Shown here in pieces: positions 2,267 to 38,574 of a stretch of 38,574 nucleotides of DNA. Below the pieces are notes generated by a model. It was not told the origin of the DNA, did no database searches, and saw only the letters and a list, made by a program, of their open reading frames with translations. The first letter of the stretch is position 1; the number at the start of each line of letters is the position of its first letter. The stretch is from contig LSLI01000017.1 in assembly GCA_001577345.1 (NCBI GenBank), positions 1-38,574 of the forward strand, given 5' to 3'. Both the position numbers and the translations under genes were made by a program. Origin of the DNA: Candidatus Gallionella acididurans (GTDB lineage Bacteria > Pseudomonadota > Gammaproteobacteria > Burkholderiales > Gallionellaceae).

Positions 2267-2490
2267 GCAAGGGCATCGGAATCGCCGGCATTCCCGCTAA
2301 TGAAATTTTCATAATATTGAGGTTTCCATATTTGATGACAATGACACATCTTTCTGAATGCGGTAAGGGGAAATTAAAAAACTGGCACGCCATTCCCGTC
2401 CTTCGATGGACTCAGGATAAACTGTCCTTCGGACAAGCGGGAATCCAGAATGCCTCGTCATTGCGATAACCAGCGACTTGCCGGCTTGCT

Positions 2491-2881
2491 GGCTTATAAC
2501 CAACCACTTGGCAACCGTTTTGTGGTTGATTATTGATCTTTCCGTTATTCATTACACCGTTCGCCCTGAGGTATCGAAGGGTGTAGACCGCCTGATGATT
2601 GGGCTTCGATACCTCAGCCCGAACGGTAGGTTTGTCGCTAATTATGGAATGCTCAATAGTGGGATGGCTAGTTGTTTCACCAGTCAATTGGCTATAACCA
2701 ACCACTTGGCAACCTTATTCTGGTTGCTTATTGATCTTTCCGTTATTCATTACACCGTTCGCCCTGATGTATCGAAGGGTGTAGACCTTCTAGTGATTGG
2801 GCTTCGATACCTCAGCCCGAACGGCAGGTTTGTCGCTAATTATGGAATGCTCAATAGTGGGATGGCTAGCGTTCCACCAGT
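2491..2881. repeat. Tandem pair of 190-bp direct repeats with REP-like palindromes
   Basis: Copy 1 (2491-2684) and copy 2 (2690-2881) are nearly identical. Each contains an imperfect inverted repeat of 26-base arms around an 18-base loop: CCGTTCGCCCTGAGGTATCG at 2557-2582 against 2601-2626, and 2755-2780 against 2799-2824. The palindrome belongs to the TTCGGGCTGAG-TATCGAAGCCC type seen as dispersed extragenic palindromes in proteobacteria. Such elements are mobilised by IS200-related transposases (RAYTs) in some species. The open frame spanning the repeats is a by-product of the repeat. Confidence 0.75.
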
Positions 2882-2947
2882 AGTTTCATCAGAAGGCGCA
2901 GCCGACGCGGCAATCCAGATGGTTTAAAAAAATGCATCTTTGTCTTG

Positions 2948-3001
2948 CTGGATTGCTTCACTTCGTTCGCAATGACGGCAAGGGTGTCGTGAATTATGGA
3001 A
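2948..3001. repeat. 54-bp direct repeat, copy 1
   Basis: Starts CTGGATTGCTTCACTTCG and ends AATTATGGAA. It is identical to the copy at 3215-3268. The element carries the GGATTGCTTC...CGCAATGACGG type of dispersed intergenic repeat. Confidence 0.75.
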
Positions 3002-3214
3002 GTATCAATAGAAGACAGCACGGCATGATTCGTAACAGGGCAGGGGAAATGAAAAAACTGGCACGTCATTCCCGCGAATTCGGGGAATCTGGAGTGCCTC
3101 GTCATTGCAACAAGGCTTCAGCTGTGAGTGATGGCACAAACACCTGTCATTGCGAGGAGGCGCAGCCGACGCGGCAATCCAGTAATGCCAAACCGCTGGA
3201 TTGATAGCAAACCA

Positions 3215-3268
3215 CTGGATTGCTTCACTTCGTTCGCAATGACGGCAAGGGTGTCGTGAATTATGGAA
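3215..3268. repeat. 54-bp direct repeat, copy 2
   Basis: Base-for-base copy of 2948-3001. Both are followed by a TCAAT motif a few bases on. The pair could recombine and delete 267 bp. Confidence 0.75.
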
Positions 3269-3418
3269 ATCTCAATGATGTTGGCGCAGTGCGGGATTTC
3301 AAGATGCCGTCAATGCGAACGAAGTGAAGCATCGCATTGGCGGCCCGCTCTTGCGGGTAGAATTTGTTTTGGCACAGCAATACTTGTTGCACTTCGTACT
3401 TTAACCAAGGGGTAATCG

Positions 3419-26291: not shown

Positions 26292-26755
26292 AATATTTAT
26301 TGGTATTGCTGATTTGTTTGTTGCCGGCATTTTCCTATGCCGGACAAGCCAAGGACCTGGCCGAGGACCCGGTTTTGGAAAAGCGCATGGTAGCCCTGGC
26401 GCAAAATCTCCGTTGCCTGGTTTGCCAGAACGAGTCGCTGGCCAGCTCGCGCTCTGATCTTGCCAAAGATCTGCGCCAGGAAGTTCGTGAAAAAATGAAG
26501 AGCGGGATGAGCGACCAGCAAATCGTCGATTTCCTGGTTTCAAAATATGGCGATTTCGTATTGTTTGATCCCCCGGTGAAGAAGGATACCTTGCTGCTTT
26601 GGTATGGCCCGTTTGCGCTGCTGATGATCGGGCTGATCGGGCTGGTAATCCAGCTGCGCAAACGCAAAACTCAAATTTCCGAAGTGGTGCTTTCTGCTGA
26701 AGACGCTCAGCGAGCCGCCGCCCTGTTGAACACACCGAAAGACCCGCAAATATGA
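26288..26755 (+). CDS. ccmH: CcmH (CcmL type), thioreductase subunit of the heme ligase complex
   Basis: A 155-residue protein. The signal peptide is residues 1-18 and the LRCLVCQNE motif holds Cys43 and Cys46. A three-helix bundle follows (SDLAKDLRQEVREKMKSGMSDQQI), and a C-terminal TM anchor lies at about 103-122. The protein corresponds to the short N-terminal part of E. coli CcmH; the TPR part is the separate gene ccmI here, as in most beta- and alphaproteobacteria. It overlaps ccmI by ATGA. Confidence 0.94.
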   Translation: MKYLLVLLICLLPAFSYAGQAKDLAEDPVLEKRMVALAQNLRCLVCQNESLASSRSDLAKDLRQEVREKMKSGMSDQQIVDFLVSKYGDFVLFDPPVKKDTLLLWYGPFALLMIGLIGLVIQLRKRKTQISEVVLSAEDAQRAAALLNTPKDPQI

Positions 26756-28008
26756 TTTTATTCTGGATATTGTCGGCAGCCATGCTGCTGGCCGCCATGC
26801 TGTTTTTTGTACTGCCGCTGTGGCGCAAAGCCGCACCCGCTAACGACGTGTTGCGTGATGCCGCCAACCTCGGGATATTGCGCGACCAATCTGCGGAACT
26901 GGACGAAGACCTGGGCAATGGTTTGTTGACGACTGAAGCTTACGAGCAAGGCAAAAAAGAATTGCAGGTACGCCTGGTCGAGGAGGTCAAATCCACCGGG
27001 CAGCCCGTCCTGTCGCCGCGAAATCCGGCCAAGGTTCTGGCGATCGTATTGGCAGTCCTGTTGCCGTTGTTCAGTGTCCTGCTCTATCTCAAGGTGGGGA
27101 ATCCCGACGCACTATTCCCGCAACAAGTCATCGCGACCGACGCCGACGGCATCATACGTTCTGATGATGACCTGAAAAAAATGGAACAGAAGCTGGAGCA
27201 CTTCCCCAAAAGCCCGAATGACTGGTGGATACTGGCGCGTTCCTATACCGAACTGAAGCGATTCCCGGACGCGGCCAGGGCATATGAGCATCTGGTCAGC
27301 CTGGTTCCGGGTGAATCCCAATTGTGGGCAAACTATGCCGAAATCTATGCGATGGCGCATGGCCAGACGCTGCAGAACCCCGAGGTCATCAAATTCCTGG
27401 AAAAGTCACTTGAACTTGATCCTGCCAACCCCACCGCGCTGGCATTGAACGGTTCCGCGGCAATGGAGCGTGGCGACTTTGTCGCAACCATCATCAACTG
27501 GCAGAAGCTGCTTGACCAGGTCAAGCCCGGTACCGAAGACGCAAAGATGTATGGCGACGGCATCAAGCGTGCGCGCAAGCTGCTTTCGGAACAACCCGGC
27601 GGCAAAGAAAAACTGGTATTGCTGGATTTGACCAGATCCCATGAAAAGTCCGCGGCAAAATCCTCGTCCGCAATAACCGGAAATGTGTCCTTGAGCCCGG
27701 CATTGCGGGGCAAGGTTGCGCCCACCGATACCGTGTTCATTCTTGCACGCGCGGCACAGGGCCCCAAGATGCCGCTGGCGGTGCTGCGCAAACAAGTGCG
27801 GGACCTGCCTTTCAAATTCACCCTCGACGACAGCATGGCGATGCAGCCGCAATTGAAGCTGTCAGGGTTTGAGCAGGTTGTGGTAGTGGCGCGGGTGTCA
27901 AAGTCCGGCGGGCCGATGGCGCAATCGGGAGATTTGCAGGGTTTGACCGGAACCGTTAAACCCGGCAGCAAAGGGCTGAATATCGTAATCGACGCCGTCG
28001 TCCCATAA
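26752..28008 (+). CDS. ccmI: CcmI, TPR apocytochrome c chaperone
   Basis: A 418-residue protein. TM helices lie at about 3-22 and 97-116 with a cytoplasmic loop holding a leucine-rich helix (RDQSAELDEDLGNGLLTTEAYEQ). A periplasmic TPR region follows (about 135-270; WWILARSYTELKRFPDAARAYE). A C-terminal beta-rich domain (VSLSPALRGKVAP, VVVARVSKSGGPMAQSGDL) resembles the cytochrome-like cap of CcmI/CycH. It binds apocytochrome C-termini and passes them to CcmF/CcmH. It is the last gene of the operon, followed by a strong terminator. Confidence 0.92.
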   Translation: MILFWILSAAMLLAAMLFFVLPLWRKAAPANDVLRDAANLGILRDQSAELDEDLGNGLLTTEAYEQGKKELQVRLVEEVKSTGQPVLSPRNPAKVLAIVLAVLLPLFSVLLYLKVGNPDALFPQQVIATDADGIIRSDDDLKKMEQKLEHFPKSPNDWWILARSYTELKRFPDAARAYEHLVSLVPGESQLWANYAEIYAMAHGQTLQNPEVIKFLEKSLELDPANPTALALNGSAAMERGDFVATIINWQKLLDQVKPGTEDAKMYGDGIKRARKLLSEQPGGKEKLVLLDLTRSHEKSAAKSSSAITGNVSLSPALRGKVAPTDTVFILARAAQGPKMPLAVLRKQVRDLPFKFTLDDSMAMQPQLKLSGFEQVVVVARVSKSGGPMAQSGDLQGLTGTVKPGSKGLNIVIDAVVP

Positions 28009-28069: not shown

Positions 28070-28263
28070 GCATGCGGACCGGCGCCGATTGATGCTGGCA
28101 AGTTGATCAATTCGCGGAATTGGATTCTGTGCGGTTCGCCGGTCATGGGTAAAGTTTATTTGCCATGGACGGGCCGGCTTCAGCTGGTTACCGGAAGTAT
28201 CCCAGAACCCTCATTGCTGAAGTCGCCATCGGCAGTGACATCGGCATCCGCGAACTCCGGAGT

Positions 28264-29730
28264 TCATTCCTTCAGGGGACGGGGTCGCGAGATTCCGAAA
28301 CCCTGCGCAAAATCGATGCCTATTTCTCTCAGGCATGAAATGGTCTCTTCGTTCTCAACCATTTCGGCAATGGTTTTAACGCCGATCTGCTTTGCAACCC
28401 GGTTCAGGGCAGTCACCTTGGCGAGTTTCAGCGGGTCGCGAAGAATATCAAGAATGACGCTGCCGTCAATTTTCAGGAATTCAACCTGGAAGCCGCGGAT
28501 CAGGTCAAACAATACCCGGTCACGCCCGAAGCCGCTGAGCGCAACAAGGCAGCCGCATTGCCTGACCTGCCGTGCAAATTCGGCCACATCCGCAGTGCTG
28601 GAGGCGAGTGCGGAATCGGTAACCTCAAAGCACAGCGCGTTTCCGGGCACGTCATATTCCTGCAGCGTCAAACGCAGATATTCTGGAAATCCCGGGTCGG
28701 AAATTGTGGACTCCGAGACATTGATGAAGAAAATCGAGTTTTCAAGTTGATCCTGCACTGGCTTTTTGCGGGTGACCCATTCCGCAACATGCTGCACCAC
28801 CCACCTGTCCAGGTGCGCCATGAGTCCGTATTTTTCTGCAAGAGGAAAGAACATTCCCGGCGGAACCATTGTTTCTTCTTCCTCCATCAAACGAACCAGG
28901 ATCTCGTAGTGAGCGGCCTGCTCTGAATTTGGCGCCAGCGGAGTAATGAGCTGGCAAAACAAACTGAATTCACCTTTCTCGATTGCCATCCTGATCAAGC
29001 CCGCATCCTGTTGCCCGGTAACCTGCTCGGCATAAGAATCGAGGAACAGATTCTGGTCAATCGATGACTGGTTTTGCGTCACAATACTCGCATCGCCGGG
29101 CCGGGTGATGTCATTCATTAATATGTGGAATCCGCTGATTTTGCCATCCAATCCAAACTGGGGAAGATGTTCAACCGAAAACCGGTACACCGTGCCATCC
29201 GGCATCTGCTGGGTTCGTTCATAATGTGCCGCATGGCCGTCCAATGATTGGCGCACGGCGGTTGCCGATTCCCGGTAGACCTTGGCACCCAGTACATCCC
29301 GCATATGCCGGCCATCGACCTGGTCCGGGCGCAAACGCAAACCGTCCAGAAATGCCCGATTGCGATATTGACAGCATCCTTCACGGTCTACAAACGCAAC
29401 CATGGTCGGCACTACCTCGTCGAGCAGATGCAGTCTCGGTTTGCTGGAGGCAACCGCCTGCTCGGCGATTTTACGCAGTTGCGATTCGCGTTCGAACTTG
29501 GCCTTTAATGACGACAGTTGTGCCGTGCGGCGCGTGACAATCCACTCCGCGTGCGACCTGCGTGTTGTTTCCGCAAGTACCGCAGCCAACAGAACCCCGG
29601 TCAGGAACGTGATCCATTCCGGGCCGAGTTGGGTGTAGTAGATGGTGAATACCAGAATGGCGGAGGTAACAATGACTGCAAAAACAGTCATGAGTGGTCC
29701 AACGGTACTAAACAGCTTACGGAATTGCAT
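28264..29730 (-). CDS. Membrane PAS-EAL protein with a degenerate phosphodiesterase site
   Basis: A 488-residue protein. Two TM helices (about 12-32 and 38-55), a short coiled coil (65-95), a PAS domain (101-210; VVPTMVAFVDREGCCQYRN, HILMNDITR) and an EAL domain (245-488). EAL reads EIL at 276-278. Asn337 (INVS), Glu369 and Lys420 (LKIDGS) align with catalytic positions, but the DDFG metal-binding motif is replaced by SGFGRD at 399-404. Loss of both Asp residues should abolish c-di-GMP hydrolysis, so it may bind c-di-GMP or act as a protein-interaction sensor (inferred). GGAGG is 7 bases before ATG 29730. It converges on ccmI. Confidence 0.82.
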   Translation of the reverse strand: MQFRKLFSTVGPLMTVFAVIVTSAILVFTIYYTQLGPEWITFLTGVLLAAVLAETTRRSHAEWIVTRRTAQLSSLKAKFERESQLRKIAEQAVASSKPRLHLLDEVVPTMVAFVDREGCCQYRNRAFLDGLRLRPDQVDGRHMRDVLGAKVYRESATAVRQSLDGHAAHYERTQQMPDGTVYRFSVEHLPQFGLDGKISGFHILMNDITRPGDASIVTQNQSSIDQNLFLDSYAEQVTGQQDAGLIRMAIEKGEFSLFCQLITPLAPNSEQAAHYEILVRLMEEEETMVPPGMFFPLAEKYGLMAHLDRWVVQHVAEWVTRKKPVQDQLENSIFFINVSESTISDPGFPEYLRLTLQEYDVPGNALCFEVTDSALASSTADVAEFARQVRQCGCLVALSGFGRDRVLFDLIRGFQVEFLKIDGSVILDILRDPLKLAKVTALNRVAKQIGVKTIAEMVENEETISCLREIGIDFAQGFGISRPRPLKE

Positions 29731-29880
29731 ATTTTGCCTCCCCCGGCCCGCTTATAAGCCCCGCTAAATTATAGATGTCGCATCTTTTTATTATAAACCT
29801 ACAGTTGATCATGACATCAACGCTTCAGGTTAACTCATACGGTTCTTATTGGGCGGATTATTTCACATCTAACTAAGGGG

Positions 29881-30105
29881 TTAAAAGTTTGTTTCGAACA
29901 CCTCGCACGGCACCGGCCTGCTGAATAAATAGCCCTGCATTTCTTGGCAGCCTGACAGGCGGAGCAAGCTGGACTGCTTCGCGGTTTCTGCGCGTTCCGC
30001 TACCACCTTGAGCTTTGGCGAATGCGCCGGGATGATGATGGTGGATACCAACCCCAGACTGAAAGTCGTATCGTCCACAAAAGGGAGGTCTATCTTTAGC
30101 GTGAG
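29881..30105 (-). pseudogene. EAL-domain protein, C-terminal remnant
   Basis: The minus-strand frame begins after loss of the upstream gene and reads LKIDLPFVDDT (EAL catalytic Lys region), LVSTIIIPAHSPKLKVVAER, then CQEMQGYLFSRPVP and the stop at 29881. This is the last 70 or so residues of an EAL phosphodiesterase. The AEGVET motif has become AERAET. There is no start codon context. It lies between the PAS-EAL gene and tRNA-Leu and is probably a scar of an insertion or deletion at the tRNA. Confidence 0.8.
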
Positions 30106-30162
30106 TACAGTGACGCCAGAAAATAAATTTTCTGAAATGCTCGTGTGTGTTGGTGTTGGTGT

Positions 30163-30254
30163 TGGTGCCCGGAACCGGAATCGAACCGGTACGCTGGTTT
30201 TACCCTAGCGACGGATTTTAAGTCCGTTGTGTCTACCAATTTCACCACCCGGGC
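30163..30254 (-). tRNA. tRNA-Leu(TAA)
   Basis: A 92-nt class II tRNA on the minus strand with encoded CCA. The acceptor GCCCGGG pairs with its 3' strand; the anticodon loop ACTTAAAAT gives anticodon TAA; the long variable arm is GCTAGGGTAAAACCAGC; the T arm is CCGGTTCGATTCCGG. It reads TTA and TTG codons. It appears intact. Confidence 0.94.
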
Positions 30255-30365
30255 GGAGCTTTCGAAGCGAAGGCCAATTTCGAACTAATCTTAAAATGGC
30301 TTGGATCCGATTGGGACAATCTGAACATTTTATCCGGCCCGGATTATCCGGTTCGGAAAATTGAA

Positions 30366-30390
30366 AAGGTCGGCAAGTCATGCCAACCTT
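30366..30390 (-). terminator. Putative minus-strand terminator downstream of the tRNA-Asn fragment
   Basis: AAGGT-CGGCA (30366-30375), AGTCA loop, TGCCA-ACCTT (30381-30390), one mismatch. On the minus strand it is followed by CCTTTTCAA. It would have terminated the ancestral tRNA-Asn transcript. Confidence 0.55.
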
Positions 30391-30400
30391 TAGTTATATC

Positions 30401-30448
30401 TGGCTCCCCGACCTGGACTCGAACCAGGGACCTGCGGATTAACAGTCC
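30401..30448 (-). pseudogene. tRNA-Asn(GTT) 3' half, island attachment site
   Basis: The minus strand reads GGACTGTTAATCC (anticodon stem-loop with GTT), then the variable loop, the T arm CCTGGTTCGAGTCCAGG and an acceptor ending GGGGAGCCA. These 48 nt match positions 29-76 of tRNA-Asn. No D arm or 5' acceptor strand follows at 30449. Integrases that target tRNA 3' ends leave exactly this kind of half copy at the distal end of the island. The orientation puts chromosome at lower and island at higher coordinates. Confidence 0.85.
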
Positions 30449-30594
30449 ACGTATATTACTATAATAATCAAAACGAAGTATGGATTTTTGTTCCGCAAAG
30501 CTATTTATTTAACGTGTCTCAAACCCAATAGCGGCGCGGGTGCATTTTTATATGCGGAATAAAATCCGAACCGATGAGCCGTAAGATTATGTAC

Positions 30595-31869
30595 TTAGCC
30601 AGCCACCGGCAGCTCACTCCATTCAGTCGTGTAGTTTGGTGACTTCCTCTCCCGTCGCATCGCCCAGCGTTGCCTGACCCCCGATGCAGCGATAGTTACA
30701 CTCCCTTGCCCCATGCGCCGGTTTATCGCGTCCATGACGCGCATCCTGTTGTCTGACCTAGCCTGCTCGGCAGGATCATCGAACAGGGTCGCCTGGATCG
30801 TATCCTTCGCCTGTAGCCCCATCAGCAGCACGCCAGTCTTTTTGTAGCGGTATCCGCTGCGGTATATCACCTTCAGTCCTGTCAGAGCGGCATGGACGAG
30901 CTTTGACGTGTCGTCGGTAGGCAGGCCCAACGGGACTACTAACGAACGCTGGTATTGCGGATCATCTTCCTTGAACGGGTTGGTGTGGACATAAACACAG
31001 AGGCTGGCCGCAACTGAACCGTCCTGTCTGAGCTTTTCTGCTGCGCGTGTAGTGAAGCTCGCAACTGACTCTGAAAGGTCAGCTAGAGCGGTTACAGTCG
31101 AGCCAAACGAGCGCGACACCATAATCTGTTGTCTGGGTGTATTGGCATCTTCCAGCTCGATGCAGGGTGTGCCGTTAAGCTCCTGAACGGTACGCGCGAG
31201 AACGATCGAGAACCGGCTGCGGATCATCTCCAGGTTGGCGTTACACAGTTCTTCCACTGTTGTTATGTTCATGGCTAGGAGCTTCTCAGTGATACGGCCG
31301 CCTACGCCCCATATCTCACCCACGGGGAGGCTGGCAAAGAGTGTCCGGCGCCGCTGCTCATCAAGCTGGCCGAAGTCGCATACGCCATCACGGCCGGCCA
31401 GTCCCTTCTTGGCGCAGTGATTAGCCAGCTTGGCGAGGGTCTTGGTATCAGCGATGCCAACACAGACCGGAATGCCGACGTTGCGCTTCACAGCCTGCCG
31501 GATGGTCTGACCGTAGGCCAACAGCGTTTTTGGATCAAATCCAGCCAGGTCAAGAAAGCATTCGTCGATGGAGTAGATCTCCTGCCTGGGCGAGAACGTG
31601 GACAGAATCGACATCACCCGCGCGGACAGGTCACCGTATAAGCTGTAGTTGCTGGAAAGTGCGACGATGCCGTGCTGCCTGGCGATCTTCTCCATCTTGA
31701 ACCAGGGTTCGCCCATCTTGATGCCCAGTGCTTTCACTTCGTTTGATCGGGCAACCGCGCAACCGTCATTATTGGACAGCACGACGACAGGTACACCTTC
31801 CAGCCTGGGATTGAACATCCGTTCGCAGGAGACGTAGAAGTTGTTGCAATCGATGAGCGCCAAGGGCAT
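30595..31869 (-). CDS. umuC: UmuC, catalytic subunit of error-prone DNA polymerase V
   Basis: A 424-residue Y-family polymerase. Palm motifs are [14 protein letters not shown] (first catalytic Asp, near residue 7), [20 protein letters not shown], and [10 protein letters not shown] (Asp-Glu catalytic pair, near 100). The little-finger region ([20 protein letters not shown]) and a C-terminal DUF4113-like tail ([20 protein letters not shown]) complete it. It copies damaged DNA with UmuD'2. ATG 31869 follows the umuD stop by 10 bases; a GTG at 31872 is adjacent. A copy of its last 69 codons recurs at 36802-37009. Confidence 0.95.
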
Positions 31870-31879
31870 CACAGCACCC

Positions 31880-32320
31880 TTAAACGAACTTCTTCACTGC
31901 GGAGGTCACCACCCCCCACACTTGCAGCTCCTGGCCCTCCTTGAACTCTATCTCCTGGCAGCGAGGGTTCTCCGGCTTGAGGATGACCTTGCCATCGCGA
32001 TTGATCAGGCGCTTCACTGTCAGATCACCATCCACAATGGCGATGACGATGTCACCGGAGGATGGCGTCAGCGATTTATCGACTACGAGCAGGTCACCAT
32101 CGAAGATGCCGGCACCGACCATGCTGTTGCCCTTGGCGCGGACGAAGAAGGTCGCGTCCTTGTTTGAGATCAGGTGTTCGTCCAGGCTCAACCGGCCCTC
32201 GATATAGTCATCGGCAGGTGAAGGAAAGCCAGCAGCAACCTTATGGCTGAATAGTGGCGCAAGGATAGGCGGTTTGCCAATCGCCGGCAGGAGGATGGCT
32301 TGTTGCAACAGGGGAGTCAT
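31880..32320 (-). CDS. umuD: UmuD, self-cleaving accessory protein of Pol V
   Basis: A 146-residue LexA-fold protein. Residues 28-34 give the cleavage site VAA-GFP (Ala30-Gly31). Ser66 ([13 protein letters not shown]) and Lys103 (LTVKRL) form the Ser-Lys dyad. RecA-stimulated cleavage makes UmuD', which activates UmuC. ATG 32320 is chosen: an earlier in-frame ATG at 32350 lies within the promoter's -10 box and would not be transcribed. It forms an operon with umuC under the operator at 32349-32377. Confidence 0.93.
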
Positions 32321-32348
32321 GGATGTTTTCGAGCAGAGCGATAGCGGC

Positions 32349-32377
32349 ATCGTAGTGAACGATCGTTCTGTTGTCAA
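32349..32377 (-). promoter_or_regulatory. umuDC promoter with GAAC-N4-GTTC palindrome in the spacer
   Basis: On the minus strand: TTGACA (32372-32377, consensus -35), 17-base spacer, TACGAT (32349-32354, -10). The spacer holds the perfect palindrome GAACGATCGTTC (32357-32368). A repressor bound there would block RNA polymerase. The sequence resembles the GAAC-N4-GTTC LexA box described for Firmicutes and related lineages, not the CTGT-N8-ACAG box of E. coli. Whether LexA or another repressor binds is inferred. Confidence 0.75.
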
Positions 32378-32604
32378 TTGAATCAGGACTGAGTGACTAA
32401 TTGCTGCCGATATACTTGGCGAAACTGATGTTCACGCTTCTCGTTAGGAGATACTCGTGACAGGAAGCAAGTGACACTTTATAGTCATTCACCGCGAATT
32501 GCCTACAGCATGTTATACGGGTAGGATTTCCAGACAAAATTCAATGTATCGGTAGTTTCGCTGAATCGAACGTCGAATTAGTCAGATTGAAGATAAAGGA
32601 ACTT

Positions 32605-33756
32605 ATGAATAGTGTTAATTCAGAACCTACGCCCGCCCTTGATGCTGTTGCAATTGGGAGCATAATTCGAGATGAACTTGACCGACGCGACAAATACTTA
32701 GAATTCGCCCAAGGACAAATCGAAAAAGATCGGGCCTACTTTAAGCACCTATACAACTATGCAGTGGCATTTCTCGCCATCCTGGTAGGAGGCGCTGCTT
32801 ATTTTTCCTACACGTCCGTAAACCAGATGCGCGGTGATATAAAAGCCTCAGCGGACGCAGAGCGAACCGAAATGAAATCGTCCGTTGACGCTGAGCTTAA
32901 TCGGGACAAAGCGGAAATGGCAGCTCTTCGTACCCAGGTGGAAAATACTGGAGTAGAAGCCCAGATAACTGTAAAAAAAGAACTGGAAAATGTTCGTACA
33001 GAAGTTCAGAAAAAGATCGCTAACGAATTCCGCAGCGAAAACATTACACACCTCATCGGAATGGCAGCGAAGGAGCGCACCGAGACAGAACTGACAGGAG
33101 TAATACACTCAGAAGCCTCCAAGCAAGTAGCACAGGGCATAAAAGACCAATGGCCGGTAATTCAGAAGGTGGTTGAAGATCAGACCAAAGAAGCTGTCAA
33201 GGCATTGCAACCCACGATTAGTGGTGCTGTCGATAAAGCAACGCAGGATCAGGTTCATGCTGCTGTAGAACCCATCCAGTCACAAATGACCGCCTACGGC
33301 GACTCTATTCGAATGGTAAACCTCGAAACGTTGGCACGTGGAGACGACAGGGGGGCTTTTGATTATTTGTTTCAGGTTGCGGTAGGATCTAAGCCTGAGT
33401 CAGCTAATACTGACTTTCGCAAGGCTGCTGACTCCACAGTGGGAGCAATTATTAGAGAAACGGAATTTCCATTGCAGATAACCCAGACCTTCAAGGAAAA
33501 GCAAACACCCGAAGCAATGAAGCATTTTATGTCAAGTCCTAATAACGAAGAACGCGAAGCTGCTTTGGACAACTACCCACAAGATGATAAAAGCATTCTT
33601 CCAGTATTGATTGAGATGATAAAGTCAGATCCAAGCATCTCCGTGCTTCATAAAGCTGTAATTCGATTCAATGCGTTAACAAAACAATCGTTCAGATTTT
33701 TTCAATCGGATGAGATTCTTAAATGGTGGAACAAAAATCAAAATTCATACAAATAG
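32605..33756 (+). CDS. Unrecognised membrane-anchored coiled-coil protein
   Basis: A 383-residue protein I cannot assign to a family. Residues 1-47 are cytoplasmic-type and charged (IIRDELDRRDKYLEFAQGQI). One TM helix lies near 50-70 (YNYAVAFLAILVGGAAYFSY). A long alternating charged region (75-235) looks like coiled coil, with repeated Lys-Glu-rich heptads. The C-terminus (240-383) is helical, with LARGDDRGAFDYLF, NNEEREAALDNYPQDDK and VLHKAVIRFNALTKQSF suggesting HEAT-like repeats. ATG 32605 has AAAGGAA 5 bases upstream; TTG 32587 is in frame but has no ribosome site. It is divergent from umuDC, about 230 bases from its promoter, and AT-richer than the core genes, so it is probably island cargo. 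Confidence 0.6.
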   Translation: MNSVNSEPTPALDAVAIGSIIRDELDRRDKYLEFAQGQIEKDRAYFKHLYNYAVAFLAILVGGAAYFSYTSVNQMRGDIKASADAERTEMKSSVDAELNRDKAEMAALRTQVENTGVEAQITVKKELENVRTEVQKKIANEFRSENITHLIGMAAKERTETELTGVIHSEASKQVAQGIKDQWPVIQKVVEDQTKEAVKALQPTISGAVDKATQDQVHAAVEPIQSQMTAYGDSIRMVNLETLARGDDRGAFDYLFQVAVGSKPESANTDFRKAADSTVGAIIRETEFPLQITQTFKEKQTPEAMKHFMSSPNNEEREAALDNYPQDDKSILPVLIEMIKSDPSISVLHKAVIRFNALTKQSFRFFQSDEILKWWNKNQNSYK

Positions 33757-33868
33757 TTGACCCTAGTTCTTTTATAGCACTGAGAACTCAATAATCCAGT
33801 TCTGTGGATTTAGTCATGAGCATTATCGATTTAAGCGGGTTGACTGAGTAATCGGTTAGGAGACAGCC

Positions 33869-34036
33869 ATGTGTGGACGCTATGCCCTCAACAGTTCACC
33901 CGCTAAGCTCAAGGAGCATTTCGCCGCAGCGAATGAACCGGACGTAAAGCCGCGCTTCAATATCGCGCCATCCCAGACGGCTCCGGTTGCTTTCCGTCCT
34001 GGTGCATCTGGTGATGAAGCCAGACACTCGGCATAG
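33869..34036 (+). pseudogene. SRAP (YedK/HMCES) peptidase, N-terminal fragment
   Basis: A 55-codon frame with a good AGGAGA ribosome site: MCGRYALNSSPAKLKEHF, then the conserved RFNIAPSQTAPV. Cys2 is the residue that crosslinks to abasic sites in single-stranded DNA in the SRAP family. The full protein is about 190-240 residues. Here it ends at 34036 after unrelated residues, so the domain's Glu and His active-site residues are missing. It lies within a damage-response neighbourhood with umuDC. Inactive by truncation. Confidence 0.85.
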
Positions 34037-34069
34037 TAGCGTACATATTTCAACTGTGATGAGGTGATT

Positions 34070-36412
34070 ATGCACTTTAGTTTGCTTGCACCGATGAAAA
34101 CCCCCTCGCAGAAAGAACTAACCCCATACCGTCGTCCATTCAACTGGACGGTATTTTCCGGCATTGCAGGGCTGGCGGGCATTATTGCCATGCTGGTGTT
34201 CAGTCTTGCCAGCGAATATCAGAACGCTAACCAAAATGCCAAAAATGAGGTGGAAAATATCACCCAGATGCTGGAAGAGAACGCGTCGGCCACCTTCAAT
34301 AATGCTGATCTGTTATTGCGGGAAATGCAAAGGGACGTACGTCCGTGGGATATGCTGCTTTCTCGCGGCACAAGAAGCGCACGCGGGCAAGAGCTTCATT
34401 CCTTGCTGGAATCCCAAGCCAATATCGTGCCGGCAGTTTCTGTTATACGTATTATCGATAGCAAGGGAAATAATATATACGGTTCGACCAATCCGATTCC
34501 CCATATCAATATCTCAGACCGCCCATATTTCCAGCGGCAACGAGCCGATGCCACAGCAGGGTTGGTGATTTCAGCTCCGCTCATTGCGCGAACTACCGGC
34601 AAATGGTCGTTTGTGCTGAGTCGGCGGCTGAATTTCAAGGATGGCAGCTTTGCGGGCATCGTCCTGGTTGTTCTGAATTTGGATTACATTCAGCGTTTAT
34701 ACCATGCCCTTAATCTTGGCACCTATGGGGTGGTGGCGCTATTCGACAGCGACCTTCGTCTTGCTGCCCGCTATCCGCCGAGCGAAAAGGATATTGGCAA
34801 GATAGCCGACTTGAATGCCAAATTCTATCTGGATAAAGGAATAACGCATGCTGTCTACCATGCCAGAGCGCCATTGGATGGCATCCCGCGCGTGTTCGCT
34901 TTCCGCAAGGTAGGCAATCTTCCCTTGATTGTGTTTGCCGGTATTGCCGACGAGGATTATCTCGCCGCATGGCATCGGCATATCTGGCAGTCCGGTATCG
35001 GGGCAATGATATTCAGCTTCGTGGTGATCGGCTTTGTATTGTTGCAACGCCGGGCAGAAGATGTGCTTCGCAAAAGCGACATGAAGAGCAAATCAGATGA
35101 TGAACAAATCGCTTATCTGGCGTTCTATGACCAACTCACCGGCTTGCCCAATCGACGGCTTCTTTCGGACCGGCTTCACCAGGCGTTGGATGCCAGTGCG
35201 CGTAGCGGCAAGAAAGGCGCGCTGTTGTTCATTGACCTGGATAATTTCAAAAGCCTCATCGATACCCTCGGCTATGACATGGCCGACCTGATGTTGAAAC
35301 AGACTGCACAACGGCTGGAAGCCTGCGTGCGTAAAAGCGACTCCGTGGCGCATATTGATGGTGACGAGTTTGTGGTGATGCTGGAAGATTTGAGTGGGAT
35401 ACCCGTTAAAGCGGCCGCACTCGCGGAAGCCGTCGGCGAAAAGATACTCGCGTCTCTCAGCCAACCTTACCAGCTTGATACTCATCATGAACACCACAGC
35501 ACTGCCAGCGTCGGTGTCACCCTGTTTAACGGCGGCCAACTGACGACAGATGAACTGCTGAAACAGGCCGACATTGCCATGTTCCAGGCCAAGAAAGCCG
35601 GACGCAATACCTTGCGCTTCTTCGATCCGCAGATGCAAGCCAGCATCACGGCCCGCTTCTCACTGGAGGGTGAATTACGCAAAGCACTTGAGCTGCAACA
35701 ATTTCATCTGTTTTACCAAGTACAGGTGGATAGTTCACATCATCCATTGGGTGCAGAGGCATTGATCCGCTGGATTCACCCCTTGCGCGGACTGGTGCCG
35801 CCAGACAAATTCATTCCGCTGGCGGAAGAAACTGGGCTGATCTTGCCCATCGGGCATTGGGTGCTTGAGACGGCCTGCGCCCAGCTCAAGGTGTGGGAAC
35901 AGAATGCGCTCACCCGTGACCTCGTTCTGGCGGTAAACGTGAGTGCCAGGCAATTCCATCAGACTGATTTCGTGGCCCAAGTGCAAGCGGTCGTGCAACA
36001 CCATGCCATCAATCCCAAGCTGCTGAAACTGGAGCTGACCGAAGGCATGTTGATTGAAAATATCGAAGAAACTATCGCGACCATGGGCGCATTGAATGAA
36101 GTCGGTGTCAAGTTATCACTGGACGATTTCGGCACCGGCTATTCATCGCTGCAATACCTCAAACGGCTGCCGATCGATCAGCTCAAGATCGATCAGTCGT
36201 TCGTGCGCGACATAACCACAGATAAGGACGACATGGCGATTGTGCATACCATTATAGCGATGGCACAAAGCCTGGACATGCAAGTTATTGCCGAAGGAGT
36301 GGAGACAAAAGAACAAAGACAGCTACTCCTAGACAGAGGCTGCATTCACTATCAGGGGTATTTGTTTGGCAGGCCGGTTCCGATTGAGCAGTTTGAGGCG
36401 TTACTGAAGTGA
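34070..36412 (+). CDS. Cache-GGDEF-EAL c-di-GMP signalling protein
   Basis: A 780-residue inner-membrane protein. TM helices lie at about 26-46 and 311-331 and flank a periplasmic dCache-type sensor (47-310; ASATFNNADLLLREMQRDV, SDRPYFQRQRAD). The GGDEF domain (about 350-510) has the motif changed to DGDEF at 430-434 (HIDGDEFVVML), so cyclase activity is uncertain. The EAL domain (about 530-780) is intact: EALIRW with Glu563, NVSARQ, ELTEG, DDFGTGYSS, KIDQSF, AEGVET. It therefore probably degrades c-di-GMP. ATG 34070 with GAGGTGA upstream is chosen over GTG 34064. It starts 33 bases after the SRAP fragment. Confidence 0.9.
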   Translation: MHFSLLAPMKTPSQKELTPYRRPFNWTVFSGIAGLAGIIAMLVFSLASEYQNANQNAKNEVENITQMLEENASATFNNADLLLREMQRDVRPWDMLLSRGTRSARGQELHSLLESQANIVPAVSVIRIIDSKGNNIYGSTNPIPHINISDRPYFQRQRADATAGLVISAPLIARTTGKWSFVLSRRLNFKDGSFAGIVLVVLNLDYIQRLYHALNLGTYGVVALFDSDLRLAARYPPSEKDIGKIADLNAKFYLDKGITHAVYHARAPLDGIPRVFAFRKVGNLPLIVFAGIADEDYLAAWHRHIWQSGIGAMIFSFVVIGFVLLQRRAEDVLRKSDMKSKSDDEQIAYLAFYDQLTGLPNRRLLSDRLHQALDASARSGKKGALLFIDLDNFKSLIDTLGYDMADLMLKQTAQRLEACVRKSDSVAHIDGDEFVVMLEDLSGIPVKAAALAEAVGEKILASLSQPYQLDTHHEHHSTASVGVTLFNGGQLTTDELLKQADIAMFQAKKAGRNTLRFFDPQMQASITARFSLEGELRKALELQQFHLFYQVQVDSSHHPLGAEALIRWIHPLRGLVPPDKFIPLAEETGLILPIGHWVLETACAQLKVWEQNALTRDLVLAVNVSARQFHQTDFVAQVQAVVQHHAINPKLLKLELTEGMLIENIEETIATMGALNEVGVKLSLDDFGTGYSSLQYLKRLPIDQLKIDQSFVRDITTDKDDMAIVHTIIAMAQSLDMQVIAEGVETKEQRQLLLDRGCIHYQGYLFGRPVPIEQFEALLK

Positions 36413-36801
36413 AGCTGACCGTTGTTGGTGCTGGAACAGTTGTGAAAGACTTGCTGTGTCCAGAACCGTGTAGGAAACGGCAGGCTCCGAACCCGGTTAT
36501 GGTGGAGCGGGCAGTGATGAAAACCGTTCGGTACTGTGGACAACCTCATGAATAGTGGAGCGGGTGAAGGGGATCGAACCCAAACCCACATACTACGTAA
36601 CTACTTGTTTAATTTAACACTGCCAGAAAACTTTTCGATCATCGTAGGACAGCATCGTAGTAGCTTATCGAAGCTACTTACACGCGCATCATTACTCAGA
36701 TTCCCACCAATTGCAACGCACAACCTGGTTGCATATTTGAATGTTTAACGCAAAGGAATAGGGGCATCGTTGCACATTTCCATTTAACACCCATAAAACC
36801 G
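36413..36801. other. Gene-free stretch with a tRNA 3' end scar
   Basis: No gene supported. Apart from the tRNA-Gly 3' end at 36556-36586, a TGGAGCGGG copy lies at 36502-36510, suggesting more than one pass of recombination here. The remainder (36590-36800) is AT-rich with no open frame that I recognise. Confidence 0.45.
36556..36586 (-). pseudogene. tRNA-Gly-like 3' end, second attachment scar
   Basis: The minus strand reads GGGTTTGGGTTCGATCCCCT and on to CACCCGCTCCA: a T arm, an acceptor 3' strand and CCA as in tRNA-Gly whose 5' end is GCGGGTG. Only about 31 nt are present and no anticodon arm precedes it. It is another half-tRNA, of the same orientation as the tRNA-Asn fragment, and probably marks a nested or earlier integration. 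Confidence 0.65.
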
Positions 36802-37009
36802 TCAGATCGCCACCGGCAACTCACCCCATTCAGTCGTGTAGTTCGGTGACTTCCGTTCACGACGCATCGCCCAGCGTTGCCTCACCCCCGATGCAGCTAT
36901 AGTCATACTCCCTTGCCCCATGCGCCGGTTTATCGCATCCATCTCGCGCATTCTGCTGTCCGACCTGGCCTGCTCGGCAGAATCATCGAACAGGGTTGCT
37001 TGGATCGTA
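36802..37009 (-). pseudogene. umuC 3' end, second copy
   Basis: The minus strand encodes the last 69 or so residues of UmuC and matches 30595-30800 closely, with scattered differences: [20 protein letters not shown] then a changed last residue. Similarity ends sharply at 37009 (TGGATCGTA), where the terminator region of the HU gene begins. There is no start. It is the tail of a diverged second umuC whose body was replaced or deleted. Confidence 0.88.
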
Positions 37010-37012
37010 GCC

Positions 37013-37031
37013 GAGGATGGACTCCATCCTC
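37013..37031 (-). terminator. Hairpin after the second HU gene
   Basis: GAGGATGG (37013-37020), ACT loop, CCATCCTC (37024-37031). A perfect 8-bp stem 9 bases beyond the HU stop codon. No T tract follows on the minus strand, so it may be a stabilising hairpin and not a true terminator. Confidence 0.4.
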
Positions 37032-37039
37032 AGCAGTCA

Positions 37040-37324
37040 TTATTTCTTGGCGCCGTTGACGGCTGCTTTCAACGTTGCACCAGCCTTGAATGCTGGTTGT
37101 TTCGATGCCTTGATCTTCAGTTCTGCGCCGGTTGCCGGATTGCGCCCAACGCGGGCAGCACGCTTGCGTACCTCGAATGAGCCGAAGCCAACGAGTGCTA
37201 CTTTATCGCCCTTCTTGAGTGCGCCGGAGATAACTTCGATGAAGGCCGCGATGGTGCGATCAGCGGCAGCATTGCTCGTGTCAGTCTTTTTTGTCAGTGC
37301 TTCGGCCAATTCTTTTCTGTTCAT
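37040..37324 (-). CDS. HU-family DNA-binding protein, second paralogue
   Basis: A 94-residue HU protein: MNRKELAEALTKKTDTSNAA, the saddle VALVGFGSFEVRKRAARVGR, arm tip NPATG, and a basic tail KAAVNGAKK. It differs at many positions from HupB in the core (90 residues), so it is not a recent duplicate. ATG 37324 has GGGGAG 8 bases upstream. HU or IHF proteins assist tyrosine-integrase recombination and are common on mobile elements, so this may be the island's own accessory factor (inferred). It sits between the umuC tail and a GGDEF tail. Confidence 0.92.
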   Translation of the reverse strand: MNRKELAEALTKKTDTSNAAADRTIAAFIEVISGALKKGDKVALVGFGSFEVRKRAARVGRNPATGAELKIKASKQPAFKAGATLKAAVNGAKK

Positions 37325-37443
37325 GTGTGTAGCTCCCCGTTGTTGTGTTTGATGAAACAGAGCTGATTTTTGTAGATATTGCGCTTGCTGACAAGTGGAG
37401 ATTGACTGTAATGTCGACTGGGAGTGTACAATCATATTCTTAG

Positions 37444-37572
37444 ATGAGCTTTACGGTAGGAGTCTGTCTGTTTTCAGGCAATCAGCACAGCATTAAGAGT
37501 TTTCTAAAACAAGCTGATGGCGTAATGTATCAGGCAAAGCGTCTGGGGAAATGCCGTTTGATCTGGAGATGA
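37444..37572 (+). pseudogene. GGDEF-domain protein, C-terminal remnant
   Basis: A 42-codon frame: MSFTVGVCLFSGNQHSIKSF then LKQADGVMYQAKRLGKCRL. These match the end of a GGDEF domain (compare SVGVTLF and LLKQADIAMFQAKKAGRNTL in the intact protein at 34070-36412). The catalytic motif and everything upstream are missing. The stop overlaps the start of the next gene. Confidence 0.82.
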
Positions 37573-38042
37573 ATCAAGCGGAATGGGTTGCCAGAATTGA
37601 TTCGATTGATGATTCAATAGTTTTTATTAACGGCAATGGATCGCAAGCAGAATATCGGGCAAAAAAGGGTTATATGATTACATGCAGATTACCGCTAATA
37701 AGAAAACGAGTTGGACGCTGTTATGAACTTGCCTACAGGGGGCAGGAGAAAGCCTCCGAATGGATATTGGTACACGGGTATGTTAATGGCAAATTAAGTC
37801 GAATAGATCATGCGTGGCTTGAATGTGAAAATCAGATATATGACGCTGTAAAGGATGAAGTGTATTCGGTGGAGATTTACACCAAGAAATTTAATGCTGT
37901 TGCCGTAGTGCGCTATGACCGTAAGAGTGCTGCGCGAAATGTAGTAGAGACGGGACACTCCGGACCTTGGGATTACCACTTTTGTCTGACGCTATCAGGC
38001 GAAAGTGAGGGCAAGAGTGTCAGGAACACAAAAGCCCCCTAA
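37569..38042 (+). CDS. Hypothetical protein with possible Cys-His-Asp triad
   Basis: A 157-residue protein without a recognised family. The order CYELAYRG (Cys near residue 57), WILVHGYVNG, RIDHAWLE (His near 83) and NQIYDAV (Asp near 93) is a C...H...D pattern seen in papain-like predicted hydrolases of phage and mobile elements, in which HAW and YD/ID strands flank the catalytic site. This is inference from motif spacing only. ATG 37569 overlaps the GGDEF remnant's stop; ATG 37551 is an in-frame alternative preceded closely by GGGGAA. Base composition is AT-rich compared with the core. The last 26 bases overlap a possible next gene in another frame. Confidence 0.5.
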   Translation: MNQAEWVARIDSIDDSIVFINGNGSQAEYRAKKGYMITCRLPLIRKRVGRCYELAYRGQEKASEWILVHGYVNGKLSRIDHAWLECENQIYDAVKDEVYSVEIYTKKFNAVAVVRYDRKSAARNVVETGHSGPWDYHFCLTLSGESEGKSVRNTKAP

Positions 38043-38191
38043 TCAAAACGTAACACTACTAAGTGCAATAGAAACACCACTGGCAACCCAGCCCACGGTA
38101 ATAGAACAGAGTTTATTTTTTTGATAAGTGAGTTAAATGATGATGGGGTTAGCAAGTTACTGGACTATATCCAAAATATGCATTCACGCTA
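38017..38191 (+). pseudogene. Small gene with a frameshift at a T7 run
   Basis: GTG 38017 with GAGGG six bases upstream opens a frame VSGTQKPPNQNVTLLSAIET then PLATQPTVIEQSLFF, ending at TGA 38122-38124. A shift of -1 within the seven T at 38116-38122 gives FLISELNDDGVSKLLDYIQN and MHSR, stop at 38191. That tail resembles the C-terminus of small HTH repressor-like proteins (LNDEGVAKLLDYA). It is either a frameshifted gene, a base-call error, or programmed slippage. The joined product would be about 58 residues. Confidence 0.4.
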
Positions 38192-38193
38192 AA

Positions 38194-38574
38194 TCATCAC
38201 CTTGCTGATAGCACTAGCCATCGGCCTGGGCATCTGACCTGCCCGACCCAACACTTACACCTGGCGCAATCAATCCCGAAGTTACCCAGGCGAATATCCA
38301 GTCAACGGTTTGCGTGAAGGGATATACCAAGACGATCAGACCGCCGGCCCATTTCACCAACAAACTAAAGAAGCGGCAGATGCGTGAATATGGCTATAAC
38401 GACAGGAACCCGAAGCATTATGAGGAAGATCACCTGATAGCCCTTTCAATCGGTGGCGCCCCTGACAATCCTCGCAACTTATGGCCCGAACCACGTAAAA
38501 GCGAGTGGGGAGCCAAGAAGAAGGATCGGCTTGAGTTTGTGCTTTACAAGATGGTGTGCAACCAGGAAATATCG
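38194..38574 (+). pseudogene. Secreted HNH-like nuclease gene, broken at its 5' end and cut by the window edge
   Basis: From 38218 a frame is open to the window end: DLPDPTLTPGAINPEVTQAN, then KKRQMREYGYNDRNPKHYEE and DHLIALSIGGAPDNPRNLWP. The DHLI...GG...NL pattern is that of an HNH-type beta-beta-alpha metal nuclease. Just before it a different frame (about 38194-38232) encodes a signal-peptide-like IITLLIALAIGLGI, and the two are separated by a stop and a frame change. No start codon precedes the hydrophobic stretch. So the 5' end has lost its start and picked up a frameshift, or is non-canonical. The 3' end lies beyond 38574. Confidence 0.6.

Follow-up and report, generated by a model that had tools for sequence, protein, structure and literature searches.

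Background

Class A (anticodon-centred) islands, as defined in Islander, consist of an intact tRNA gene, a displaced 3′ fragment of the same gene in the same orientation and a tyrosine integrase gene between the two, and the Islander table holds 2083 islands with an anticodon-centred site (PMC4383910). PFGI-1 of Pseudomonas fluorescens Pf-5 is described as a 115-kb element at a tRNA-Lys gene with 45 bp of the tRNA 3′ end within 49-bp repeats, a site covering the anticodon and T loops, and a phage-like integrase near the tRNA (PMC2647930). Here we analyse a stretch of 38,574 nucleotides (referred to as the window in the rest of the text) from Candidatus Gallionella acididurans (assembly GCA_001577345.1, contig LSLI01000017.1), part of which very probably belongs to a genomic island that a tyrosine integrase inserted in a tRNA-Asn(GUU) gene, at its anticodon-loop region. 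Compared with class A nothing essential differs, except that the island here lies over three contigs whose order comes from split genes. It resembles PFGI-1 in its tRNA 3′-end repeats and nearby integrase and differs from it in target tRNA and size, the cargo standing outside this comparison. The island is an ordinary, well-supported tRNA island with clear attachment-site evidence, and thus a known kind of element.

Results

A displaced half of tRNA-Asn and the intact gene beside an integrase

The source genome consists of 316 contigs (3.43 Mb), and the window is contig C17, whose end it shares. As the first-pass annotation of the window had claimed, a 48-nt 3′ half of tRNA-Asn, from anticodon stem to CCA, lies on the minus strand at 30401-30448, and positions 30399-30448 are identical at 50 of 50 bases to C27:23945-23994, forming a direct repeat with the 3′ end of an intact gene (E 1.7e-19 in a one-genome search). 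Identity begins at the anticodon stem, at GGACTGTTAATCC, which corresponds to the anticodon-loop (A) sublocation. ARAGORN calls a 74-nt tRNA-Asn at 30401-30474; Rfam, at gathering score, lists the C27 tRNA-Asn and none at these positions. Because the call has no Rfam listing and its 5′ part differs from the C27 gene, we take 30401-30474 to be the tRNA fragment plus unrelated sequence. The listing of tRNA fragments at attR sites as genes has been described for tRNAscan-SE and GtRNAdb (PMC9897764).

The intact tRNA-Asn (C27:23917-23992) is, apart from the window, the sole strong match in the genome. A gene for a tyrosine integrase of 343 aa (Pfam Phage_integrase, 1.5e-17; PHROG integrase, 3.8e-41) points at it from about 70 nt away; the best solved relatives of this protein are Int structures (E ~3e-7), one of six being named lambda integrase. 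The gene next to the integrase encodes a DUF4224 protein of 77 aa with matches to PHROG excisionases. An intact tRNA-Asn with a matching 3′ end and an adjoining integrase had been predicted, and both are indeed present in the same genome, on C27. With the contig order that split genes indicate (see below), the displaced fragment lies downstream of the intact gene in the same orientation, with the integrase gene between them. Gene content also changes across the boundary as first noted, with umuC, umuD, GGDEF-EAL and HU genes above it and a CcmI/CycH-type gene below (Table 1).

The genome search returned three matches at E 0.001, in the window, on C27 and on C132. The C132 match is a 21-nt exact piece of the tRNA-Asn T arm (L006, G000:C132, 3794-3814); read by eye, this contig has sequence of conjugation-like and CRISPR-like type.

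Arm-type sites tie the two ends to one element

The arm-type motif TTGTTCCGCAA has six exact copies in the 3.43-Mb genome, three of them at the two ends of this island. Counted from the start of the core, the two window sites are at -111 (the degenerate one) and -49, and those of C27 at +85 and +105. In the same genus, a complete element of G010 on one contig has arms at -111, -49, +88 and +108 with the related motif TTCTACAA. In G013 the positions are -114, -52, +84 and +105 with a core string beginning 3 bases later, and -111, -49, +87 and +108 once rescaled to the same core start. Two viral contigs, both with a single tRNA-half core within the fetched stretch, have arms at -112, -50, +79 and +98 and at -115, -52, +55 and +73. 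This layout, which the island shares with a complete relative and two viral att sites, ties the C17 and C27 ends to one element. The arm motifs were sought across the whole window, and none was found near the tRNA-Gly remnant at 36.5-36.8 kb.

The G010 element (L097, 7.2 kb) is similar in further respects: its integrase is about 51-55% identical, its arm positions agree within 3 bases and, like the island, it has a 48-nt 3′ tRNA half at its far end (L097:16841-16888). It differs in its tRNA-Phe target and in its arm core, TTCTACAA as against TTCCGCAA in the island. None of the island proteins compared with L097 gave a match, the C71 proteins, integrase, DUF4224 and GGDEF-EAL proteins being outside that comparison.

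Two split genes suggest the order of three contigs

The end of C27 cuts a 5′-nucleotidase gene, of which profile positions 87-302 of 302 are present. The last bases of C71 correspond to positions 1-88 of this profile, and the two contigs are its only matches in the genome. C71 opens with the C-terminal stretch of an endonuclease-like protein, which can be aligned by eye with the last part of a full-length homologue from a Burkholderia plasmid; the window ends in an endonuclease-like gene cut by the contig end (Table 1). The cut part of each split gene was found once, and from these two genes we therefore infer the order C17, C71, C27 reversed. The path would run through C17:30449-38574, C71:1-16676 and C27:32632 down to 23995, which sums to 8,126 + 16,676 + 8,638 = 33,440 bases on three contigs ordered by split genes. 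The island is thus probably about 33.4 kb long. Islander asks for 2-200 kb on one replicon, whereas the figure here is a sum over three contigs. A direct join of C17 to C27 was rejected, the cut genes being different and each continuing at an end of C71. Queries of 200 bases from the C17 and C27 ends gave self-matches only in the genome. On C71, ARAGORN found no tRNA, and a 14-base string of the tRNA-Asn T arm was not found.

The site is uninterrupted in five relatives

Outside Islander's filters, we added the presence of an uninterrupted site in relatives. Stretches around tRNA-Asn 3′ ends were sampled from 24 of 36 same-genus genomes, 23 of them with an intact tRNA-Asn and one (G019, L051) without. 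The comparison with island-free relatives proposed at first pass bore out the expectation: in five of the 23 loci (G021, G006, G027, G022 and G024) an uninterrupted tRNA-Asn lies between both flanks, in the order C27 left flank (aminotransferase, 950-aa protein), tRNA-Asn, CcmI gene of the window. With the joined flanks as blastn query, the match to these five relatives extends several kb into the ccm cluster. Nine of the remaining loci have the left flank only and nine have neither flank. UmuC, UmuD and the C27 integrase had no match in any of the 23 loci at E 1e-6, and GGDEF-EAL, EAL and HU queries had matches in some of them.

In G004 (L049, 8814-12071) and G015 (L053, 9304-12620), two tRNA-Asn 3′ ends are present, about 3.2 kb apart. 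Neither stretch matches the C27 integrase, and elements other than those with this integrase may use tRNA-Asn too.

Proposed integration and alternative explanations

The attachment site of the island itself would have carried the 3′ half of tRNA-Asn, so that integration would have restored a complete tRNA-Asn next to the integrase, on C27, and left the original 3′ half displaced at the opposite end, now window 30399-30448. In this scheme the integrase would bind the arm sites that flank the core and exchange strands, presumably in the anticodon stem-loop; the DUF4224 protein encoded beside it is a candidate excisionase. The observations behind the scheme are the two island ends, the integrase, the arm layout, the empty site of relatives and the two split genes. 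Even where reads are lacking, such an island can be outlined from split genes, the spacing of arm sites and empty sites taken together, and here these fix the ends and the likely extent of one hidden by a fragmented assembly.

Several observations weigh against this reading. C17, C71 and C27 are joined neither by reads nor by end overlaps of at least 10 bases; overlaps of 6 and 8 bases can be seen by eye, and in the 8-base one the last bases do not match. The endonuclease-like tail at the start of C71 recurs in the window as a decayed copy (83% over 47 bases). GC content is 50.3% in the window part, 49.8% on C71 and 45.2% in the C27 part, and this drop from about 50% indicates that the island is not uniform. 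TTGTTCCGCAA is neither rarer nor commoner than its reversed control (6 versus 7 copies), so that only its placement is telling. Among the five empty-site relatives, the alignment crosses the junction by more than 5 bases in one (G022), and CcmI was not seen beside tRNA-Asn in 18 of the 23 loci, partly because of contig ends.

Two other origins of the half tRNA were weighed. At least two tandem islands could share tRNA-Asn, the C27 integrase belonging to one and the window end to another that has lost its integrase. A mosaic interior, with a second umuC piece, a second SRAP piece and a tRNA-Gly remnant, would suit such an arrangement, as would the T-arm match on C132. However, the genome search revealed no further tRNA-Asn 3′ half, the T-arm string is missing from C71, and one arm motif occurs at both ends, laid out as in single elements of this integrase family; we consider tandem islands improbable. 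Chromosomal rearrangement or duplication in place of integration is hardly credible. The neighbouring tRNA-Leu block appears to have moved, so rearrangement did occur here, yet the repeat starts at the anticodon stem, the integrase lies at the other copy, arm sites are present at both, and the locus is uninterrupted in five relatives. The arm-site layout likewise speaks against a rearrangement or duplication.

Integrase relatives at other tRNA genes

Of 399 genomes of the order, 24, the source genome among them, have a relative of the integrase at E 1e-40. A 37-row tree places it as sister to the integrase of G025 at tRNA-Leu(UAA) (99/87), with that of G063 next (98/96). These two, the nearest in the genus, share 67-71% (G025, where the match is in two pieces in different frames) and 71-72% (G063) identity with it. 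Both have paired arms of the same type as the island and both lie at tRNA-Leu(UAA), not tRNA-Asn; the simplest reading is that the integrase target changed in this lineage. Integrases can change tRNA while keeping their place within the tRNA. PMC2647930 cites Williams 2002 for a correlation between this place and the integrase subfamily.

We surveyed 42 integrase loci. An ARAGORN tRNA lies at most 700 bases from the integrase 3′ end in 20, with an arm pair between them in 13; these include L094, where a tRNA-Leu unlisted by ARAGORN was read by eye in a sequence with an N. Among the 13, five kinds of intact tRNA are represented: Asn, Leu-UAA, Leu-CAA, Phe and a CAU tRNA called Met. The arm pair is absent from the other seven tRNA-adjacent loci (L123-L127, L131 and L138; Ser, Lys, Cys and Arg). 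As for the remaining 22 loci, a tRNA half was seen by eye in eight (L095, L107, L108, L117, L128, L130, L134 and L136) and not in 14, in three cases because the record ends at the integrase. An inner arm pair is present at L095 (-113, -50) and L107 (-111, -49) and a single such site at L130; no inner pair was found at L108 or L117. Judged by identity, L132, L133 and L135, which are among the seven viral loci, look like the same elements as L092, L093 and L094. With arm-paired loci at five kinds of tRNA, this family lends itself to studying how an integrase switches from one tRNA to another.

The island looks composite

Window positions 33812..34036 match C71:74-120 and 1373-1492 at 83-84% DNA identity, and the window contains a second umuC 3′ end and a remnant of tRNA-Gly(CCC) (Table 1). 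Each umuC end lies just inside a tRNA 3′ end, about 150 bases from Asn in one case and about 230 from Gly in the other. We tentatively read the repeated umuC, endonuclease and SRAP pieces, together with the tRNA-Gly remnant, as what is left of another, related element, and the island looks composite.

A more specific history can be proposed, in which two related umuDC-endonuclease-SRAP elements, one formerly ending at tRNA-Gly(CCC), fused, and the integrase changed its target from tRNA-Leu(UAA) to tRNA-Asn, the old target now lying about 145 bp outside the att site. We regard this combination as rather unlikely; if it were true, the locus would be a snapshot of an anticodon-loop integrase changing its tRNA with its arm sites kept.

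Read by eye, the att site of L136, a viral relative of the integrase, contains half of a tRNA that resembles tRNA-Gly(CCC). Elsewhere in the window, short repeats in direct and inverted orientation cluster at 2366-3340; some of them are identical or about 97% alike to C27 repeats near 3.4-3.9 kb.

Genes carried by the island

Table 1. Features of the window at and around the island boundary.
Feature	Position	Strand	Evidence or remark
CcmI/CycH-type gene, ccm cluster, outside island	26752..28008	+	Right neighbour of tRNA-Asn in five relatives
Intact tRNA-Leu(UAA), outside island	30163..30254	-	ARAGORN, Rfam
Decayed tRNA-Cys 3′ end, upstream of tRNA-Leu, outside island	30262..30286 (approximate)	-	G025 Gly-Cys-Leu match
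Distal att site (attR)	30399..30448	-	48-nt 3′ half of tRNA-Asn plus 2 bases
Arm-type site TTGTTCCGCAA	30488..30498	+	-49 from core; inverted relative to C27-end sites
Second, degenerate arm-type site	30550..30562	-	-111 from core; TGCGGAA at 30553
umuC-like Y-family polymerase gene	30595..31872	-	Pfam IMS, IMS_C, DUF4113
umuD-like gene	31880..32377	-	Pfam Peptidase_S24; PHROG UmuD-like
389-aa protein, function unassigned	32587..33756	+	Pfam match below cut-off only; no PHROG or PADLOC match
Decayed endonuclease-like tail and 55-aa N-terminal SRAP piece	33812..34036	+	Pfam SRAP 1-46 of 214
dCache-GGDEF-EAL protein	34064..36412	+	Pfam scan
tRNA-Gly(CCC) 3′-end remnant, 26 nt	36556..36581	-	26/26 to intact tRNA-Gly(CCC) on C46
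Second, truncated umuC 3′ end	36809..37009	-	89.6% to 30602-30802
HU-like DNA-binding protein	37040..37324	-	Pfam Bac_DNA_binding
163-aa protein, function unassigned	37551..38042	+	No Pfam or PHROG match
Endonuclease-like gene, cut by contig end	38314..38574	+	Pfam Endonuclea_NS_2 below cut-off

An element carrying umuDC, HU, SRAP and c-di-GMP genes had been foreseen. The umuDC, HU and c-di-GMP genes were recovered as such; the SRAP gene of the window proved to be a broken 55-aa piece, its full-length copy lying on C71. C71 further carries genes for a 934-aa MmeI-like type IIG restriction-methylation enzyme (L141, G000:C71, 6583-9387), a resolvase, DUF2252 and GIY-YIG proteins and a protein with weak resemblance to PD-T4-7, and C27 contributes MarC, an insertion sequence (IS) transposase, P63C, the 5′-nucleotidase and a HicA-like protein below cut-off. 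In part (UmuDC, SRAP and the type IIG enzyme) this cargo relates to DNA damage and defence. Pfam and PHROG scans of island proteins (not every frame, and C71 without PHROGs) named no capsid, tail or packaging gene, and the Pfam scans, again not of every frame, named no relaxase or type IV secretion gene. A UmuD 70% identical to that of the window occurs in L079 (G068:C80), near a distant (33%) relative of the integrase.

DNA just outside the boundary

The genes below the boundary had been taken for core genes, which holds for the ccm cluster and fails for the 2.3 kb next to the att site. This interval (28070-30398), between the ccm cluster and the att site, comprises an EAL gene, an EAL remnant recognised by eye and tRNA-Leu(UAA), and has no DNA match at the corresponding place in the five empty-site relatives. 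Of 16 fetched tRNA-Leu stretches (L027-L042), 11 have the tRNA-Leu immediately after tRNA-Gly and tRNA-Cys. In the source genome, Gly-Cys is on C2, apart from tRNA-Leu on C17, and the match to the Gly-Cys-Leu stretch of G025 runs over its positions 16-138, tRNA-Cys starting at about 114. The tRNA-Leu/EAL block has probably moved. Elsewhere in the genome, at G000:C44:23671-23721 (L103), a 51-bp stretch matches the 3′ part of tRNA-Cys at 96% and is possibly the far end of another island.

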